A stretch of 64,000 nt of DNA, from contig QIFC01000077.1 in the NCBI GenBank assembly GCA_003228685.1, forward strand, positions 1-64,000. Direction: 5' to 3'. The notes beneath the pieces were generated by a model. The model did no database searches, had not been told where the DNA came from, and saw nothing but the letters and a program-made list of their open reading frames with translations. Each line of letters starts with the position of its first letter. Position 1 is the first letter of the stretch. The stretch is from Chloroflexota bacterium. GTDB taxonomy: Bacteria; Chloroflexota; Dehalococcoidia; DSTF01; RBG-16-68-14. A program made the translations under genes and the position numbers. This document shows positions 1 through 7,414 of the stretch, piece after piece.

Positions 1-35
1 GCGCGATGCGCCGCTTAAAGCCGAACAGGCCGTAG

Positions 36-80
36 AGGACATTCTAGCTGCAACGTAAAGGAGGACATTCTACCTGCAAC
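36..80. repeat. Two 20-nt direct repeats, possible insertion-sequence end
   Basis: The 20-mer at 36-55 recurs at 61-80 with a single base change, a spacing of 25 nt. Closely spaced short repeats like this are often found at the ends of insertion sequences. A plus-strand reading frame is open from the left edge to a TAA at 56-58 and could be the last residues of a transposase cut by the window edge, but 18 codons are too few to tell. The repeats end 13 nt before the stop of the metalloprotease gene. Confidence 0.35.
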
Positions 81-92
81 CCAACAGGGCCT

Positions 93-1973
93 TTAGGCCC
101 GCACGCCAGCGGCCTCTACGCGCTCACGCCGCTCCGTGTTACGGTCGCCCTCGACGCACTCCGGCGGATTCCTGTCTGCCAGCGCGTCGCACGTCTCCTT
201 CCACGTTGGTGGCACGTTTGGGTTCGGGGCAACGCCGCCGTCCTCGATGTCGACGTTGCACTGCTGGAACGTCCGGATTTGGTTGTCGCCGGCCTGGTGG
301 TCAGTCTTCGTGATGCAGTAGAACAGCCCGGCGCCAGTGTTGACGCTGCCGGCGACGATGTCGCTCACGCCCGCCAAGCTACCGTCGTTGATCAGCTCTC
401 CGCAATCGTTCGGCTCGCAGGGGCCTGTCGACGGCGGAATGAAGCCCCAACCGACGGTGCTACCGTGAGTAGCGGCGCAGGTAACGGCGTCGATAAGGTT
501 GTGACCCTGCGTAGCGAGCTTGAAGGACGCGAACGAAGACGCGGGCATCGGGCCTACGGTGCCGACAGTGTTGGCGGGGATACACGAGCTGTCCGTTACG
601 GAAGGGCTAACGATTGTATCCCCGTCCCGAATATGAAGCTGCAAGGCCTTGGAGTTCGGATTGAAGTTGATGAACTGGAGGTTGATGTCTTCAAGGGAAC
701 GGTAGTACGTGAAGACGTAGTCCCAAGCGCCGCTGTCGAATAGCTCGCTGACGGTATACGCCGTACTCGGAGCGCTACAAACATGGGCGGCGGTGCAGGC
801 CACGACTCTGCGATAGACGGTCGTGAGATGGTCCGTAGGCAAGACGTCGTCATACTGGGTCCCCGTGATTGGTCCCGTGCAGCTCGTCGTGAAGAAGCCA
901 GACGGAAGGACGTCCGCCCGGATGATCTTATAGTGGTCCGCGCCGCTGACGGCTGGCCACACGAAGCGGTTGACCGTCGTTGACGGGAAGGAGGCGGCCA
1001 TACCGGACGGGGCGGGCAGGCTGGCCAATACGGTCACCGTGAGGTTCCGCGTTTCCCCCGCATATGGGGGGTCGTGCTGCGGGTCGGCGAAGGTCAGCGG
1101 GAGGATTGGAAACTCCTGCTGCCCACCTTGCAGGCCGGTCACCGGCATGCTGTCTTCGTTCTTGTCCACGGCCGTCAGCGGCTCCCATTGCCCGGTGCAG
1201 TTGTTCCGCCAGTTTATCAGGTACCCTCGTTCGTTGTGAATGTCGCTCCCATCCCAATTGAAGTCGACGGTATTATCTGCAACCGAATTCGCCCCGAAGC
1301 CGGCGACGGCGTCCGCGTGGTAGGCGTCGTGGTAGTTCATTTCGTCGAGCGGTTGCGGCGTTGTGTACCAGCAGTTTTCTGACGTGTCCATGAGCGTGGC
1401 CTGCCCGCCGGGACCACAGCCATTGTAGTCTGCATGGCCCAGGGCGTGCCCCAGCTCGTGGGTGATGTCTCGGGTGGTGTGGTCGCCGCCGTCCGTATGC
1501 GCTAGCCCTGGTCCAAAGAGGTTAGGGTCGGGGTTCATCCGGATATAGATCGGCAAGTCCAGACTGTAATCGCCAACGGCGTCCGTATCAACACAGGCAT
1601 GACTTCCCGGCTGGCAGCGCGAGAAAAGTGAGGTCGTTACGATGACGTCCGCGCCCGTGCAGTTGCTCTGATAGGCGAAGATGTCGATTACGTTTCCGCC
1701 GCCCGTTCCCGCAGTGTCTCTCCATCTGGTAGCGGCCTCCGCGGTGGACAACGGGAATTCTGAACTGCACAGGGTGGGCGTCGCACGCTCGAAGCCCCCT
1801 TCTACCTCGACTCCTTCTATGAGCTTCTTGAGCAGACCAGTCCCACCTGACGGCCAGACCTGCATATGCCCATCCGTATGGTTCGCGCGGATTACCGGGG
1901 CCTGGAATGTCTGAATGGAGCCAACCGCCAGTGCCAGAGAAAAAATGACCATCGCCAGGGCTCGTGATGGCAA
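93..1973 (-). CDS. Secreted metzincin-like zinc metalloprotease
   Basis: Predicted exported protease of about 626 residues. A signal peptide with one hydrophobic stretch opens the protein. The zinc site reads HELGHALGHAD, which fits HExxHxxGxxD with Asp as the third ligand, and is followed about 15 residues later by an ATLMD segment that could be the Met-turn. This is the metzincin signature, with the Asp ligand seen in snapalysin-type enzymes. The long region behind it holds fibronectin-like strands and paired cysteines, so it probably binds substrate or the cell surface. I chose the TTG at 1973 because it lies 1 nt after the stop of the preceding gene and gives an Arg-containing n-region. 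An ATG at 1952 and a TTG at 2012 are alternatives. The last residues are encoded by the tail repeat. The substrate is unknown. Confidence 0.72.
   Translation of the reverse strand: MPSRALAMVIFSLALAVGSIQTFQAPVIRANHTDGHMQVWPSGGTGLLKKLIEGVEVEGGFERATPTLCSSEFPLSTAEAATRWRDTAGTGGGNVIDIFAYQSNCTGADVIVTTSLFSRCQPGSHACVDTDAVGDYSLDLPIYIRMNPDPNLFGPGLAHTDGGDHTTRDITHELGHALGHADYNGCGPGGQATLMDTSENCWYTTPQPLDEMNYHDAYHADAVAGFGANSVADNTVDFNWDGSDIHNERGYLINWRNNCTGQWEPLTAVDKNEDSMPVTGLQGGQQEFPILPLTFADPQHDPPYAGETRNLTVTVLASLPAPSGMAASFPSTTVNRFVWPAVSGADHYKIIRADVLPSGFFTTSCTGPITGTQYDDVLPTDHLTTVYRRVVACTAAHVCSAPSTAYTVSELFDSGAWDYVFTYYRSLEDINLQFINFNPNSKALQLHIRDGDTIVSPSVTDSSCIPANTVGTVGPMPASSFASFKLATQGHNLIDAVTCAATHGSTVGWGFIPPSTGPCEPNDCGELINDGSLAGVSDIVAGSVNTGAGLFYCITKTDHQAGDNQIRTFQQCNVDIEDGGVAPNPNVPPTWKETCDALADRNPPECVEGDRNTERRERVEAAGVRA
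94..149 (-). repeat. Gene-tail repeat, copy 1 (end of the metalloprotease gene)
   Basis: This 56-nt stretch encodes the last 18 or so residues of the metalloprotease and recurs at 2656-2711 with five mismatches. The two copies are direct repeats enclosing the metalloprotease and the 201-residue membrane protein. Confidence 0.75.
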
Positions 1974-1974
1974 G

Positions 1975-2580
1975 CTAGCAGTCGCGGGAAATCGTCGCGG
2001 CGATCTGGTCAAATACGGGCCCTAGGCTGCCTTCCAGCACGGTTCTGCCTAGCTCTTGTGCCGTGTCTGAATCGAATACCACCGCGGACTCAGTTCCCAA
2101 CGACCCAAAGGCTATGCTCGTAACGCCGCCCGGGTCGTTCACGGCGGTGTGAATGTCGAAGGTGTAGCCGCCTGGAAGGTAGAAGGAGAGGCACTGCCCA
2201 TATGCGTACCATTGCCCGCCGTCGGCAGTCCCACGCGCCGCGCCCACCGGGTTCTCTGGGCGCGACGGCGGAGGCGGCAGCGCAGGCCACTTGGTCGGTT
2301 CGGCGGTCGCCGTCGGCGCGGGCGGCGCCTCCGTCGGCGGCAGCGCGGTGGGGGTGGGCGTGGGCTGGGGTGTCGGCGGCTCCGTGGTCGGAGTTGGCGT
2401 TGCCAGCGGGGCTGTTGGGCTCGCGGATACGGTCGCGCCTGCCGGGACGGATGTACCGTCGCCGCCGCCTGGGCCGGTCTGGTACGCGAAGTACGCCCCA
2501 GCGCTGAGGCCGCCGATCGAAACGGCAACCAGGCCAACTTTGGCCAGTCCCGCGAGGACTCCGGATGAGATCACGCCCAT
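1975..2580 (-). CDS. Membrane-anchored protein with Pro/Thr linker, unknown function
   Basis: About 201 residues. An N-terminal hydrophobic helix at residues 8-32 is followed by a Pro/Thr/Ala-rich low-complexity linker of about 70 residues, typical of a wall-spanning spacer. A compact C-terminal domain of about 90 residues begins after the SRPEN segment and contains two cysteines, one of them the last residue. The gene lies directly upstream of the metalloprotease and is probably co-transcribed, so the two may work together at the cell surface. I do not recognise the C-terminal domain; it resembles the small globular tails of other Pro/Thr-linker lipoprotein-like proteins. Its stop is 1 nt from the proposed protease start, which suggests translational coupling. 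Confidence 0.6.
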   Translation of the reverse strand: MGVISSGVLAGLAKVGLVAVSIGGLSAGAYFAYQTGPGGGDGTSVPAGATVSASPTAPLATPTPTTEPPTPQPTPTPTALPPTEAPPAPTATAEPTKWPALPPPPSRPENPVGAARGTADGGQWYAYGQCLSFYLPGGYTFDIHTAVNDPGGVTSIAFGSLGTESAVVFDSDTAQELGRTVLEGSLGPVFDQIAATISRDC

Positions 2581-2655
2581 ACTTACTCGCTCCGCCTCTT
2601 ACTCCGTGTGTGCCGCATACAATAGAGTCCGGAGCGCTGTCTGTCAAGAGCCATG

Positions 2656-2711
2656 TAGGCCCGTACGCCAGCAGCCTCTACGCGCTCGCGCCGCTCCATG
2701 CTACGGTCGCC
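2656..2711 (-). repeat. Gene-tail repeat, copy 2 (orphan)
   Basis: Matches 94-149 at 51 of 56 positions. In the minus-strand reading the same residues (ERRERVEAAGVRA) are encoded but the stop codon is replaced by a sense codon. No gene body precedes it, so it is an orphan tail. Confidence 0.75.
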
Positions 2712-2730
2712 ATGTCGCCCCGTGGGGCAG

Positions 2731-2773
2731 CCAGCAGAAGCGAAGCTTCTGCCAAGCTGACCGAAGGTCAGCC
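2731..2773 (-). repeat. Double-hairpin palindromic element, copy 1 (inverted)
   Basis: Read on the minus strand it has one stem with arms GCTGACC/GGTCAGC around TTC, followed by a second with arms GCAGAAGC/GCTTCTGC around TTC. It has the layout of the copies at 40271, 40366, 43266, 45211, 45290 and 45401, and lies just upstream of the promoter of the next plus-strand gene. Confidence 0.7.
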
Positions 2774-2776
2774 GTC

Positions 2777-2782
2777 TATAAT
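2777..2782 (+). promoter_or_regulatory. Promoter -10 box TATAAT
   Basis: A perfect TATAAT lies 16 nt before the ATG at 2799. A start at the ATG at 2781 would overlap this box, so the box argues for 2799 as the true start. No clear -35 is seen; the hairpin element occupies that place. Confidence 0.5.
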
Positions 2783-2798
2783 GAGTCGCTACACCGTC

Positions 2799-3428
2799 AT
2801 GAGCGACACCAACGAAACGCGTGAGATCGACATGCACCGGCGCGTGTGCGTGATAGGGCCAGACGTCATCGACTTCCGGCCCGCGCGCAGCGCCGCCGCC
2901 GCGCCCGCCATCGGCTTCGTGCTGGGCGTAATCGCCTTCGTGGCCGTGGTGCTCTGGCTGGAGGAGCTGCCCTTCACGCTCGCGCTGCTGCTGATGGGCG
3001 GCGCCATCCTCCTCGTGCCGTTCTCCGGCATGGGCTTCGTCTACTCGGTCTACGGCGCGAACGTCGTCGTCAACAGGGAGAAGCGCACGGCCGTCTGGCA
3101 GCAGGGCCTCTTCGGCATGGGCGTCGGCACCGAAGAGCTGGTGCCGTTCGAGAAGATCGAACAGATCGAGATCGAGGACGTCGGCGACTCCCTGGACGAG
3201 CACGGCAACCCCGACCTGGCCCAGTATGAGGTGCGGTTGCTCAAGAAGAGCGGCAAGCAGCTCCAACTCGGCCAGATCAACGTCCCCGGCGACATGCTGG
3301 AGGATGGCATCCGTCGCGCCCGCCTCGTCGGCGAGGCCGTCGCGGGCATGGTCGAGAAGCCGCTGAAGGAGATCGGCGTCGAACCGCGCAGACGCTATCG
3401 CAAGCGCGACGAATCGCCGGTCGCATAG
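2799..3428 (+). CDS. Membrane protein, possible PH-like domain
   Basis: About 209 residues. Two transmembrane helices at roughly residues 35-55 and 60-80 are separated by a very short turn and followed by a soluble domain rich in beta-strand-like segments (VVVNREKRTAVWQQG, then EKIEQIEIEDV), the pattern of bacterial PH-like domains. The start at 2799 is preferred over 2781 because of the overlapping -10 box. The gene lies 3 nt upstream of a glycosyltransferase and is probably co-transcribed with it, so a role in envelope assembly is possible. No catalytic motif is visible and the function is unassigned. Confidence 0.7.
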   Translation: MSDTNETREIDMHRRVCVIGPDVIDFRPARSAAAAPAIGFVLGVIAFVAVVLWLEELPFTLALLLMGGAILLVPFSGMGFVYSVYGANVVVNREKRTAVWQQGLFGMGVGTEELVPFEKIEQIEIEDVGDSLDEHGNPDLAQYEVRLLKKSGKQLQLGQINVPGDMLEDGIRRARLVGEAVAGMVEKPLKEIGVEPRRRYRKRDESPVA

Positions 3429-3431
3429 CGC

Positions 3432-4238
3432 ATGGCCACTGAAGACGCGCCCGCATCCCCGTCCACGTCAATGTCAATGCTTAGCCTGAGCTACGTCGTT
3501 CCCGCCTACAACGAGGAGGAGCGCCTGGGCGGCTCACTCGCGACGCTCATCGCCTATAGCACTGCGCAGTCTTATGCAGTCGAGATCATCATCGTCGATG
3601 ACGGCAGCGCCGACCGCACCGCCGAGATCGCCACGGCCGCGCTCGCGGATCTACCGGACGGCGTCTTCGCGAAGCTCATCCAGCACAAGGTCAACCGGGG
3701 CAAAGGCGCCGCCGTCCGCACCGGGGCGCTCGCCGCGTCCAACGATGTCGTGCTCTATCTGGACGCCGACCTCTCCACCCTGCCGGATCAGACCCCGAAG
3801 CTGCTCGCCGCGCTTGCTGCCGGGGCGCCCTTCGGCGCCACCGGCGCCGACATCGCCATCGGCAGCCGCATCCGGCCTGAGGGCGGCGATATGCGCGCCT
3901 CGCAGCCGGCCTGGCGTCGTGTCGGCGGCAGGCTGTTCGCCCTCCTCCGTCGCCGGCTGCTCCTCTCCGGCATCGAGGACACGCAGTGCGGGTTCAAAGC
4001 GTTCACCAGGCCCGCGGCGCAAGCCATCTTCTCACGCCAACAACTCGATGGCTGGGCGTTCGATGCGGAACTGCTCTATCTGGCGCATCGTCTGGGATAC
4101 AGCGTCGTCCAGGTGCCAATCGAGTGGCGCCACGTGGAGGGATCGCGATTCCAACTCGGCGCAGGCTCCGCCTATCGTGAGGTGCGCGACCTCGTGCGCG
4201 TGCGCTGGCTGCATCGGGGGCTAACCTCAGGCGACTAG
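3432..4238 (+). CDS. Family 2 glycosyltransferase (dolichol/polyprenyl-phosphate hexose synthase type)
   Basis: A 268-residue GT-A enzyme. The N-terminal Rossmann-like segment is YVVPAYNEEERLGGS, the nucleotide-binding region has DDGSADRT, and the metal-binding motif is DADLST. A later DTQCGFK motif is characteristic of the ALG5/DPM1-like branch, which moves a sugar from a nucleotide to a polyprenyl phosphate at the membrane. There is no transmembrane tail. It follows the membrane protein by 3 nt. A second member of the same branch lies at 12743-13468. The donor sugar cannot be read from the sequence. Confidence 0.85.
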   Translation: MATEDAPASPSTSMSMLSLSYVVPAYNEEERLGGSLATLIAYSTAQSYAVEIIIVDDGSADRTAEIATAALADLPDGVFAKLIQHKVNRGKGAAVRTGALAASNDVVLYLDADLSTLPDQTPKLLAALAAGAPFGATGADIAIGSRIRPEGGDMRASQPAWRRVGGRLFALLRRRLLLSGIEDTQCGFKAFTRPAAQAIFSRQQLDGWAFDAELLYLAHRLGYSVVQVPIEWRHVEGSRFQLGAGSAYREVRDLVRVRWLHRGLTSGD

Positions 4239-4254
4239 ATCAATCAGATAAACA

Positions 4255-4284
4255 TTGACAGTTGAGCAACTGTGCAAGTATAAT
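4255..4284 (+). promoter_or_regulatory. Strong sigma-70-type promoter of the zinc operon
   Basis: TTGACA (4255-4260) and TATAAT (4279-4284) are both perfect and separated by 18 nt. The -10 box ends 7 nt before the ATG at 4292, so transcription should begin at or next to the start codon and give a leaderless mRNA. Confidence 0.85.
4258..4273. promoter_or_regulatory. Operator palindrome ACAGTTG-AG-CAACTGT
   Basis: A perfect 7-bp inverted repeat with a 2-nt centre overlaps the last bases of the -35 box and fills part of the spacer. Dimeric ArsR/SmtB repressors bind such palindromes and block RNA polymerase. A second, weaker inverted pair (GCAAG at 4274, CTTGC at 4287) surrounds the -10 box. The likely ligand is the product of the adjacent gene. 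Confidence 0.7.
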
Positions 4285-4291
4285 TGCTTGC

Positions 4292-4657
4292 ATGGGAGCT
4301 AGTGCAACGGTCGCGGATCGATCCGGCGAAGCTCATAGCGAGAGCGTTGCCATGGTCCTCAGTTCGCTGATCGAGCGAACGACCGCAGCGGACGTGGCGA
4401 ACGTCTTCCGCGTCCTCTCTGATCCGACGCGCGTCTGCATCATCCATGCGCTATCGCTCGGCGAACTCTGCAACGGCGACCTCGCCGCGGTCCTGGCCAT
4501 CTCAGAATCGGCCGTGTCGCACCAGATGCGGGAGCTGCGGCTGATGAAGTTGGTCACCGCCGACAAGCGCGGCCGGCACGTCTACTACCGGCTCACCGAC
4601 GCGCACATCCAGCACATCTTCCAGGACACGCTGCGCCACGTGCAGGAGGACGCCTAG
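4292..4657 (+). CDS. Zinc-sensing ArsR/SmtB family repressor
   Basis: About 121 residues with a winged helix-turn-helix (SDPTRVCIIHAL, then SESAVSHQMRELRLMKLV). The C-terminal alpha-5 helix has the residue pattern D-x-H-x10-H-x2-E, the interfacial zinc site of SmtB/CzrA-type sensors. The alpha-3 region has only one cysteine (ELCNGDL), so the cadmium/lead-type alpha-3 site is missing. It should repress its own operon and release DNA when zinc is high. The next gene, 5 nt downstream, is a cation exporter, which supports this. The start at 4292 lies 7 nt after the -10 box, so an upstream start would not be transcribed. Confidence 0.9.
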   Translation: MGASATVADRSGEAHSESVAMVLSSLIERTTAADVANVFRVLSDPTRVCIIHALSLGELCNGDLAAVLAISESAVSHQMRELRLMKLVTADKRGRHVYYRLTDAHIQHIFQDTLRHVQEDA

Positions 4658-4662
4658 GTGCG

Positions 4663-5631
4663 ATGAGTAGGGACGTATCGGACGGCCTGAACGAAGCGCG
4701 CCTGTCGAACCGGCGCGCACTAACGATAGCGCTCGTCATTGCCTTCGTGTTCCTGATTGCTGAGGTCATCGGTGGCGTGCTCACGAACAGCCTGGCCCTC
4801 ATCGCTGACGCGGGCCACATGGCATCCGATGTGCTGGCGGTGTCGTTGGCGCTTGCCGCCATCTGGATGGCGAGCCGCCCAGCCAGCCCCCAGCAGACGT
4901 TCGGTTACCAGCGCGCGGAAGTTCTGGCGGCCGCCGCCAACGGCGCCATCCTGCTGCTGGTGGCAGCGTACGTCTTCTGGCAGGCAGCCCTGCGCCTGGG
5001 TGATCCACCTGAGGTAGAGAGCGGACTAATGCTCGCTGTCGGGGCCGCCGGTCTGGCTGCCAACGTGGCCAGCGCGTTCATCTTGCACGGCCAGCAGAGC
5101 GAGAGCCTCAACGTCCGCGGCGCGTTCTACCACGTGCTCGGCGACCTGGCGGGCTCGATCGGTGTGATGGTTGCGGGCATCATCATGCTGACCACCGGCT
5201 GGTTCCTGGCCGACCCGCTGGTCAGCGTCGTGATCGGGCTGCTGATCGTGCTCGGCGCTGTCCGCCTCTTGCGAGACTCACTGACCGTGCTGCTGGAGAC
5301 CGTGCCCAGCCACATCGATTCAGCGTCCGTAGAACGCGCGCTAACTGACACGGAAGGCGTGGTAGATCTGCACGACCTTCACATCTGGACCGTCACGTCG
5401 GGGCTTGTGGCGCTGAGTTGCCACTGCGAACTGACGGGCGATCGCGACTCGGATCAGGTGCTTGCGGAGCTGTGCGACATGCTCCACGAGCGGTTCGCGA
5501 TTCACCACGTGACGATCCAGCCGGAGGTCGAGAGGCTTCATGGTGGCACGGGCGATCACTCGCTGCCGCGCTGCACGAGCGACATTGGGCACGAGCACAG
5601 GCCAGCGGAGGTGGCGTCTACTGAACGCTAG
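4663..5631 (+). CDS. Cation diffusion facilitator, zinc exporter (CzcD/ZitB type)
   Basis: 322 residues with six transmembrane helices in the first 210 and a cytoplasmic C-terminal domain. The paired metal site of the family is present: HxxxD-type motifs ADAGHMASD in helix 2 and HVLGDLAGS in helix 5. The C-terminal HDLHIW segment and late histidines match the regulatory zinc sites of the family. It exchanges cytoplasmic zinc for protons and would lower intracellular zinc. It is co-transcribed with the repressor at 4292. Its 3' end overlaps the convergent gene by 14 nt, so there is no room for an intergenic terminator. Confidence 0.92.
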   Translation: MSRDVSDGLNEARLSNRRALTIALVIAFVFLIAEVIGGVLTNSLALIADAGHMASDVLAVSLALAAIWMASRPASPQQTFGYQRAEVLAAAANGAILLLVAAYVFWQAALRLGDPPEVESGLMLAVGAAGLAANVASAFILHGQQSESLNVRGAFYHVLGDLAGSIGVMVAGIIMLTTGWFLADPLVSVVIGLLIVLGAVRLLRDSLTVLLETVPSHIDSASVERALTDTEGVVDLHDLHIWTVTSGLVALSCHCELTGDRDSDQVLAELCDMLHERFAIHHVTIQPEVERLHGGTGDHSLPRCTSDIGHEHRPAEVASTER

Positions 5632-7414
5632 GACGCGAACGGGCGATCAGCACAATCCCCACGACGCCCGCCAGGACCAACGCCAGCACACCAGAGCCGA
5701 TCAGGAATCGCAGGAGCCCGTCCCGGTCAGCGCCGTCGATCTGAGACGTGGCGTCTCGCGCTAGCCGCTCTGACTTCGAGAACTCCGCGGCGGCGAAGGC
5801 GTCCGCGGCTTCTCCCAACGCCGCGTCCGGGTCCTTGCCGATCAGGCCGATGTCCGTCCAGAAGTCGCGCGGCTCGCGGATCCGTTCTCTAGCGTCTACG
5901 TAGGTCTGGAGCGCTCGTTCCGCAGCCGAGAGGAGGCTCTCCGCCTCGTCGAAGTCCCATTCAGCGATAAGCTGGCCGATGCGCGCTGGCAGACCAAAGC
6001 CGGCGCTTTGGGTGGCTGGCCGGAGCGCGTCGAGTCGATCCTGCAGGTCACGGCGCTGCTCTAGGGCCGGCCCGTACGATGCGGGGAAGACCGCGTCAAG
6101 GAAGAGCCCGTCCAGGCGCAGGCCGCTCGCCTCTTCCAGTAAACCCAGGTACGTTTCGCTGTCCACACCACCGCCGCGCGTTGTGGCCTCTGCGTTCGCG
6201 CCCTGCAGCGCATCCAGCCCGGCCGTCTCAGCGAGTTGCTCAATGAACGTTCGTGACTTGTAGTAGCCCGTCTCCTCGATCAGAAGCTCCTCCTGACCGG
6301 CGCCGATCAGGTGGCGGCTCCGTCCCCAATTATCCAGCTGAAGATCCACGATCACGGGAGGTGTCAGGGACTCGAATGGGTCCACGAGAGCCAGCAGCGA
6401 CTCTGCGGCGCGCTCTGACATGAACTCTGCCAGACCCTCGGCGATCCAACGGTCCTCGAACGGCTGCGTCCAGAGGTGCGCTAGTTCGTGTAGGGCCACG
6501 ACATCTCCTGCCAGCGGCGAGATACCGATTACGCAGCTATCAAAGAGGCAGCCGAACGTCCCCTCGTAGCCGGCGATCTCCTGGCGGCCCCGTTCCGCGA
6601 TCTCGAGTTCCGATGGTCCCTGATACACCGCGCCGAAGAGCTCTTCAAGGACGGGTAGCGCTGCCTCGGCCAGCTCGCGCATGTGGGTGGCCCACGCCTC
6701 TTCGCCGGGGAAGTGGCGGAGGGTGATGGTGACGTCGCCGGCAGCCAAGGGCACGGAAAAGCTGGAGCTGTTCAGCACCCCGGCCCGCGCGACCTCCACG
6801 AATGCGGCCACCTGCACGAACTCGGAGGCGCCGCAGGAGAAGACTCCGCCGGGCGTCAGCGGACAGTCGATCGCTTCGACAGTCACCTCCCAATTCGGGT
6901 CGGTGGTGGTGGTGATGCGCACCTCAGACGAATCGCCGCTCGCGATGGCGGGAAGGAAGACATAGCTGTCGCTAGCGAGCAGCGCGGTGTCACGCCCTTC
7001 AACGAGGTCGTACGTCAGCTCGAACGCATACGTCTCGTCGTAGTAGAGTCGCCGGTCGAACGTGACTTCCGCGATGTCGATCGGCCCTTCGCCGGAGCTA
7101 TCGATGTCGACGCTTAGCGCCACGCCCGCCGGGCCGGTCGCTTGGACCAACGTCGCGCCGCGCAGGATCGGCACGGTGAGACTCTCGTAGAAGGAGACGC
7201 TCCCGAAGTCGCTGCGGACAGTGTCAGGGTCGTTGTTGTCCAGCGAGACCTGCCACGACACGTGAACTGGACCCTGATCGGGTTGGACATCGTACGTCAC
7301 AAGGCTAGAGATGCGCAGCAGTTCGTCGGCGGACGCCGTAGGCACATCCGAACTGAGCCAGCCTGCGAGCAGGAGGGCTGACGTTGCCAGGGCTGCTACG
7401 GCATAGCGTATCAT
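5618..7414 (-). CDS. Secreted, membrane-anchored gluzincin-like peptidase
   Basis: 598 residues. A signal peptide covers residues 1-30, and a C-terminal helix (FLIGSGVLALVLAGVVG) followed by Arg-containing residues anchors the protein with its catalytic part outside. The motif HELAHLW, followed after about 17 residues by EGLAEF, gives the HExxH plus Glu zinc ligands of M1-like (peptidase MA) enzymes. The N-terminal 230 residues are strand-rich, like the beta domain before such catalytic domains. The segment between catalytic domain and anchor is helical, with many Glu and Arg. Substrate unknown. It is convergent with the zinc exporter and divergent from purF. Confidence 0.75.
   Translation of the reverse strand: MIRYAVAALATSALLLAGWLSSDVPTASADELLRISSLVTYDVQPDQGPVHVSWQVSLDNNDPDTVRSDFGSVSFYESLTVPILRGATLVQATGPAGVALSVDIDSSGEGPIDIAEVTFDRRLYYDETYAFELTYDLVEGRDTALLASDSYVFLPAIASGDSSEVRITTTTDPNWEVTVEAIDCPLTPGGVFSCGASEFVQVAAFVEVARAGVLNSSSFSVPLAAGDVTITLRHFPGEEAWATHMRELAEAALPVLEELFGAVYQGPSELEIAERGRQEIAGYEGTFGCLFDSCVIGISPLAGDVVALHELAHLWTQPFEDRWIAEGLAEFMSERAAESLLALVDPFESLTPPVIVDLQLDNWGRSRHLIGAGQEELLIEETGYYKSRTFIEQLAETAGLDALQGANAEATTRGGGVDSETYLGLLEEASGLRLDGLFLDAVFPASYGPALEQRRDLQDRLDALRPATQSAGFGLPARIGQLIAEWDFDEAESLLSAAERALQTYVDARERIREPRDFWTDIGLIGKDPDAALGEAADAFAAAEFSKSERLARDATSQIDGADRDGLLRFLIGSGVLALVLAGVVGIVLIARSRPSVQ

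Follow-up and report, generated by a model that had tools for sequence, protein, structure and literature searches.

A probable promoter-side spacer repeat and, at a contig edge of a Chloroflexota genome, an insertion sequence whose copies lie before TTGAC

Why should the final codons of a metalloprotease-like gene recur, in the same orientation, upstream of the two-gene block to which that gene belongs? The question arises at the start of a 64,000-nt window (the whole stretch of Chloroflexota DNA analyzed here), where two 56-nt direct repeats on the minus strand, copy 1 at 94–149 and copy 2 at 2656–2711, match at 51 of 56 positions (91%). A sequence-only reading had described this pair, with its five mismatches, as flanking two genes, and our alignments agreed on both counts. 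The flanked minus-strand genes encode a 201-aa membrane protein (1975–2580), first in the block, and a 639-aa metalloprotease-like protein (93–2012) with an HELGHALGHAD motif. Copy 1 encodes the end of the protease frame (...ERRERVEAAGVRA), with the stop codon at 93–95. Copy 2, earlier called an orphan with a mutated stop, indeed has TAC in place of TAA and is preceded by no gene body. Chance is ruled out as the source of the pair: a 23-nt core of the repeat, allowing up to three mismatches, matched exactly twice in the window and not once in 100 shuffles. A diversity-generating retroelement was rejected, as all five mismatches are transitions and the template/variable pattern is absent. Neither gene matched a Pfam family, and positions 1–6000 gave no Rfam match at the gathering score.

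Searches of the genome revealed nine clear copies of the 56-mer, two each on contigs C10 (the window's own) and C99 and one each on C63, C92, C82, C26, and C96. BLAST located all but the C96 copy, which was added by scanning retrieved stretches. A profile built from ten copies (these nine and one from genome G001) returned the nine at E values of 6.6e-16 or better, with the next match in the same genome at 4.7e-4 (C83). As the profile was built from them, recovery of the nine copies follows by construction; its added value is that no further clear copies emerged, in a search that scored 150 of 6217 first-look candidates and may miss weaker ones. Whether the 56-mer is an ordinary dispersed repeat, as many unrelated copies would have implied, is thus answered halfway: clear copies are few, yet several (C92, C96, C82, and C26) are unrelated to the protease and membrane protein pair.

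The setting of these copies was more informative than their number. Most are intergenic and lie near promoters. Four of the nine (C10 at 2656, C63, C92, and C96) pass through TGGCTC or TGGCCC directly into a -35-like box, which is TTGAC at C10, C63, and C96 and TTGAT at C92. In the window, the 8-nt spacer CATGGCTC (2648–2655, minus strand) separates copy 2 from a promoter-like TTGACA-17-TATTGT (2619–2647, minus strand; 10 of 12 matches) ahead of the membrane protein gene. The last six bases of this spacer (TGGCTC) also occur at C63 and C92, with TGGCCC at C96. Because the sequences after the -35 box differ among C10, C92, and C96, the shared part ends at the promoter. Two further copies (C10 at 94 and C99 at 85) have an insertion sequence (IS) at the -35 spot instead. 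The remaining three have no abutting -35 box, although C26 and C99 at 3748 have a -35-like box further downstream. Behind the copy at C82:2590–2662, no promoter was seen in the stretch read.

A copy on contig C229 of G001 is orthologous to that on C26, lying upstream of the same gene. As promoter surroundings and the start of the downstream gene are shared, this copy is probably older than the split of the two species. Genome G002 gave a weak match only (4.5e-5), and among more distant relatives the profile found nothing better than E 0.0017. REP and BIME elements are dispersed intergenic repeats with an imperfect hairpin. The 56-mer resembles them in being dispersed and intergenic, in having an imperfect hairpin, and in lying beside other short hairpin repeats. 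In contrast to REP, it has only nine clear copies, a promoter-side bias, and weak hairpin support (the core is a weak predicted hairpin, and 2 of 11 pairs have a sequence changed on both sides). Assignment as a REP element by high copy number accordingly failed. Two short hairpin repeats precede copy 2 (2729–2775; GGCTGACC..GGTCAGC and GCAGAAGC..GCTTCTGC) and have dozens of partial copies in the genome. These were also seen on C51, C32, C7, C59, and other contigs, often clustered between genes.

The 56-mer looks like a low-copy, promoter-side spacer rather than a protease tail, and it would belong to the promoter-side intergenic spacers of this genus as a dispersed repeat. The earlier label of "metalloprotease tail" has the relationship the wrong way round, since the copies are mostly intergenic and near promoters and the protease paralogs end differently. 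Part of the C-terminal half-sequence aside, no search was needed to see that the protease has kin: a C-terminal region of it was found again at 12 further places in the genome. Paralogs on C99 and C110, where the continuation was read, proceed beyond a conserved PEC motif with other sequence. The window protease, which is shorter than its paralogs, enters the repeat a few residues after PEC and then stops, ending inside copy 1. As the frame runs into a second spacer, ERRERVEAAGVRA would represent spacer read-through and not a protease domain. The gene has probably lost its original 3' part, perhaps by a deletion that joined it to the spacer. The two copies here would then reflect two promoters that are or once were present, one at 2647–2619 driving the two-gene block and a putative second beyond position 86. 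As the sequence of the window starts at position 1, this second promoter lies outside the data.

The same arrangement had been interpreted as the scar of a cassette boundary, in which the block moved in by recombination between 56-mers and left them as its borders. Bracketing is real, both for the window block and for a paralogous two-gene block on C99 (copies at C99:85–168 and 3748–3819). The block is also absent at this position from stretches of G002 and G005, where the neighboring genes (2781–4238) are preceded by folP-folK-like genes, and tblastn at 1e-5 found neither block gene in ten stretches from G001–G005. However, none of the stretches from relatives showed an empty site with one repeat, copies exist without the block (C92, C96, C82, and C26), and simple copying of paralogous units along with their spacers would yield the same picture. 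We consider the cassette scar unlikely; the idea of a block boundary is partly right.

The membrane protein N-terminus recurs at C99, C103, C109, C63, and C110, and weakly at C41. All three units with an uncut upstream region (C10, C63, and C99) carry the 56-mer there, the C63 copy sitting after the end of a dockerin-type gene and before the next membrane protein gene starts. The C103 and C109 units are cut at their own -35 box by the IS, and C110 is cut by the start of its contig. Paralogous two-gene units were seen at 93–2580 and at loci L061, L094, L095, L096, and L064, several of them at contig ends. These pair a membrane protein bearing a proline/threonine-rich stretch with a large secreted-looking protein; the second genes differ, yet share a cysteine-containing region. 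Large proteins at L061:269–3145, L064, L234, and L239 carry C-terminal repeated DGVIDL.NDILGVI motifs, dockerin-like in look.

Next to copy 1, the window opens with the end of the IS. Position 1 is a contig end, the start of C10 in a 3.53-Mb draft of 128 contigs. End searches assigned 1–86 (plus strand) as an A end of the IS, with the terminus ...CTACCTGCAACCCAACA at 70–86. By eye, positions 2–58 read RDAPLKAEQAVEDILAAT*, the last 18 codons and stop of a transposase, close to the end of the fragment at L173. A 20-nt motif occurs twice within this end (35–54 and 61–80). The adjoining GGGCCT (87–92; AGGCCC on the minus strand) was assigned as a 6-bp target duplication by comparison of IS flanks, and no partner side was found for it with confidence.

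The 23-nt terminus taken from bases 64–86 (up to three mismatches) occurred at 31 places in the genome, none of them more than about 210 nt from a contig end. These are recent ends of one IS, 16 A and 15 B, which share the terminus CTACCTGCAACCCAACA (with a C/G variant at one base) as short terminal inverted repeats. Seven of the 16 A-side 6-mers match a B-side 6-mer, compared with a mean of 0.85 and a maximum of 5 in 20,000 column shuffles and with none in a shifted control. As a set, the target duplications are 6 bp, and once 7 bp. Two A ends showed individual changes: an internal 8-nt-like duplication shifts the transposase end at C7 (L105), and one of the two subterminal repeats is missing at C41 (L024). 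Searches of this assembly with the A end and the N-terminal part of the transposase did not find the IS body.

Reading outward from the B ends revealed a fixed landing position. In 14 of 15 B flanks, 6 nt are followed by TTGAC, and in the remaining one (C19) 7 nt are followed by TTGAC. A flanks had TTGAC at that distance in 1 of 16 cases. By eye this is C79, whose partner is C19; a 7-nt duplication within a near-palindromic site links the two (also by eye). Two decayed ends obey the same rule, at C53 and at C99 near 3690 (12 of 14 matches to the terminus). Because TTGAC lies 6 nt (once 7 nt) from every recent B end, we think it most likely that the IS chooses its sites by the -35 box, or by proteins bound to it, in one orientation. 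An IS with a strict position before TTGAC is a more surprising feature than the 56-mer repeat that led to it.

Among 60 genomes, the 194-nt A end matched its own genome, G003 (44 nt), and G038 (28 nt). The terminus was found in eight stretches of the genome_contigs collection, of which two (L148 and L150) look like IS ends and six like chance. L148 carries the same sequence as the G003 match and is a decayed A end, and is thus uninformative on the TTGAC rule. Elsewhere in the genome of L150 (G393:C232), the A end of a related IS lacks TTGAC at that distance, like the A ends here. The rule also holds in a Bacillota-labelled MAG (JAUYEF010000444.1), in which ACGGCC TTGACA comes after the end of a related IS. 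Ten stretches of viral contigs matched the terminus; by eye these are one conserved unrelated sequence, and none was followed by 6 nt and TTGAC.

Judged from their sequences, most IS sites look like sigma70 promoters, including those of comEA, rplU, and lexA. A -10-like hexamer was present at 15–19 nt in 12 of 17 sites (15 recent and 2 decayed), versus 8.2% of 497 TTGAC sites in 39 stretches of the same genome, a background sampled around hits, with most of the IS sites among it. By eye, the genes behind B ends include rplU (C73), a cysteine desulfurase (C95), lexA (C102), membrane protein units (C103 and C109), and comEA-comEC (C14). One specific possibility, to which we give slightly less than an even chance, is that the transposase finds the sigma70 -35 box, directly or through RNA polymerase, and inserts one way 6 bp upstream, leaving the host promoter intact. 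That the IS reads the word TTGAC alone is an evenly balanced proposition. The excess of promoters would then arise from selection against genic insertions and from the scarcity of TTGAC at 63% G+C. None of the 15 B ends lacks TTGAC, even though the -10 hexamer is weak at some sites, such as C14. In an exceptional copy (C7/C64), the TTGACG at C64 lies, by eye, inside a LuxR-type reading frame. The frequency of -10-like hexamers at IS sites argues for more than the word itself, although selection could yield the same excess.

The comEA site also provided a view of an uninserted promoter. In G001, the comEA promoter (TTGACATTCTGCC...CACAGTAGGCGCACGTAG) is free of the IS, and comEA in both G002 and G003 has the TTGAC box with the IS absent. 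The A flank at C13 matches the comEA region of G001 over 38 nt (95%) and has further genes in common with it, so C13 and C14 are probably neighbors. Their ends (L143 and L127) have unequal 6-mers, ACGGCC and AGGCCC, despite this synteny and without explanation. We rejected C10 and C14 as two sides of one insertion, suggested by their shared AGGCCC, as C13 carries the sequence and genes that precede comEA in G001 and G002. This assignment by synteny counts against our preferred reading of the window, since C14 is the sole B flank with AGGCCC. As GGCCC is frequent at the IS sites, C14 and the window may match by coincidence.

The shared landing position raised a further alternative, that the 56-mer is itself a decayed terminus, left by an older or non-autonomous element that followed the same rule (ACA, then 6 nt, then TTGAC). 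Aligned at the same offset, the 56-mer agrees with the IS terminus at 9 of 14 positions (C63) or 8 of 14 (C10 and C92). A score of at least 8 was reached at only 28 of 949 TTGA(C/T) sites, 16 of which are IS ends or decayed ends. However, unrelated sites reach equal scores, and the likeness of the right end of the 56-mer to the IS terminus is weak. The 6-mer also hardly varies from copy to copy, unlike what independent insertions would produce, and neither a second transposase site nor an opposite end was seen. We regard this origin as quite improbable and retain the spacer interpretation.

The transposase of the window IS is represented by fragments of related IS: an N-terminal fragment at L150, beginning beside a B end, and a C-terminal fragment at L173, ending at an A end. 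With the transposase starting at the B end, its gene is oriented away from the host promoter. At a guess, a transposase of roughly 410 aa would make the IS about 1.4 kb long. Domain matches of the fragments were to HTH, rve, and Mu-type C-terminal domains, and the models that scored highest were IS481 (NF033577) and ISNCY_2 (NF033594), with both fragments below the curated cut-offs (93.1 and 65.1 bits for the two fragments against 224 for IS481; 85.7 and 78.8 bits against 250 for ISNCY_2). We therefore describe the window-edge element as IS481/ISNCY-like. IS21, first suggested by the repeated ends and TG...CA termini, was rejected, as its model scored below IS481 and ISNCY_2 on both fragments. 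The N-terminal part of the transposase had matches in 3 of 393 genomes of the class (35–39% identity) and none in its own genome, and no relatives were found in plasmids or viral contigs. The N-terminal HTH also showed a weak match to sigma70 region 4 (E 0.008), under cut-off and behind generic HTH models, which we note as a lead only.

To our knowledge, strict -35 targeting is not a known trait of the IS481 or ISNCY_2 families. A search of the open-access literature found no description of an IS aimed at -35 boxes. The nearest described behavior is that of the ISAjo2 group of the IS1202 family, which inserts beside XerC sites. These elements have a single DDE transposase, a fixed orientation, TGT/ACA ends, a short duplication, and a constant 5-bp spacing to a site where protein binds, the XerC half of dif/pdif (PMC10132070). 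The window IS appears to share with this group a single DDE transposase, one orientation, a fixed distance, a short duplication, and TGT/ACA ends. The two differ in duplication length (5 bp there versus 6, once 7, here) and in target, which is dif-like for the ISAjo2 group and the TTGAC of -35 boxes here. Membership of the group was rejected on flank reading, as all 15 B flanks continue, after 6–7 nt and TTGAC, into promoter-like sequence or, at C64, into a coding region rather than a dif-like site.

Together, these data make a joint interpretation probable, in which the 56-mer is a promoter-side spacer repeat, the protease reads into such a spacer, and the IS inserted at the second spacer by selecting its -35 box. 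An IS481/ISNCY-like element would have entered there with a 6-bp duplication, window positions 1–86 being its end, and would recognize the -35 box or proteins on it in one orientation. Like the IS here, Ty3-type retrotransposons integrate within a short interval ahead of transcribed genes and spare the host. Ty3 is, however, a eukaryotic retrotransposon guided by RNA polymerase III factors, while the present element is a bacterial DNA transposon.

If the promoter-seeking reading is true, this IS would be a bacterial counterpart of promoter-seeking retrotransposons. Strict and nearly harmless landing sites are uncommon among bacterial transposons. Should the IS read the -35 box, it would offer a compact test of promoter choice by a lone transposase, and it may alter the expression of housekeeping genes (rplU, lexA, and comEA) through the replacement of all sequence that preceded their -35 boxes. 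The locus also carries a warning, in that repeats resembling gene tails close to the ends of contigs may be promoter spacers interrupted by elements of this kind.
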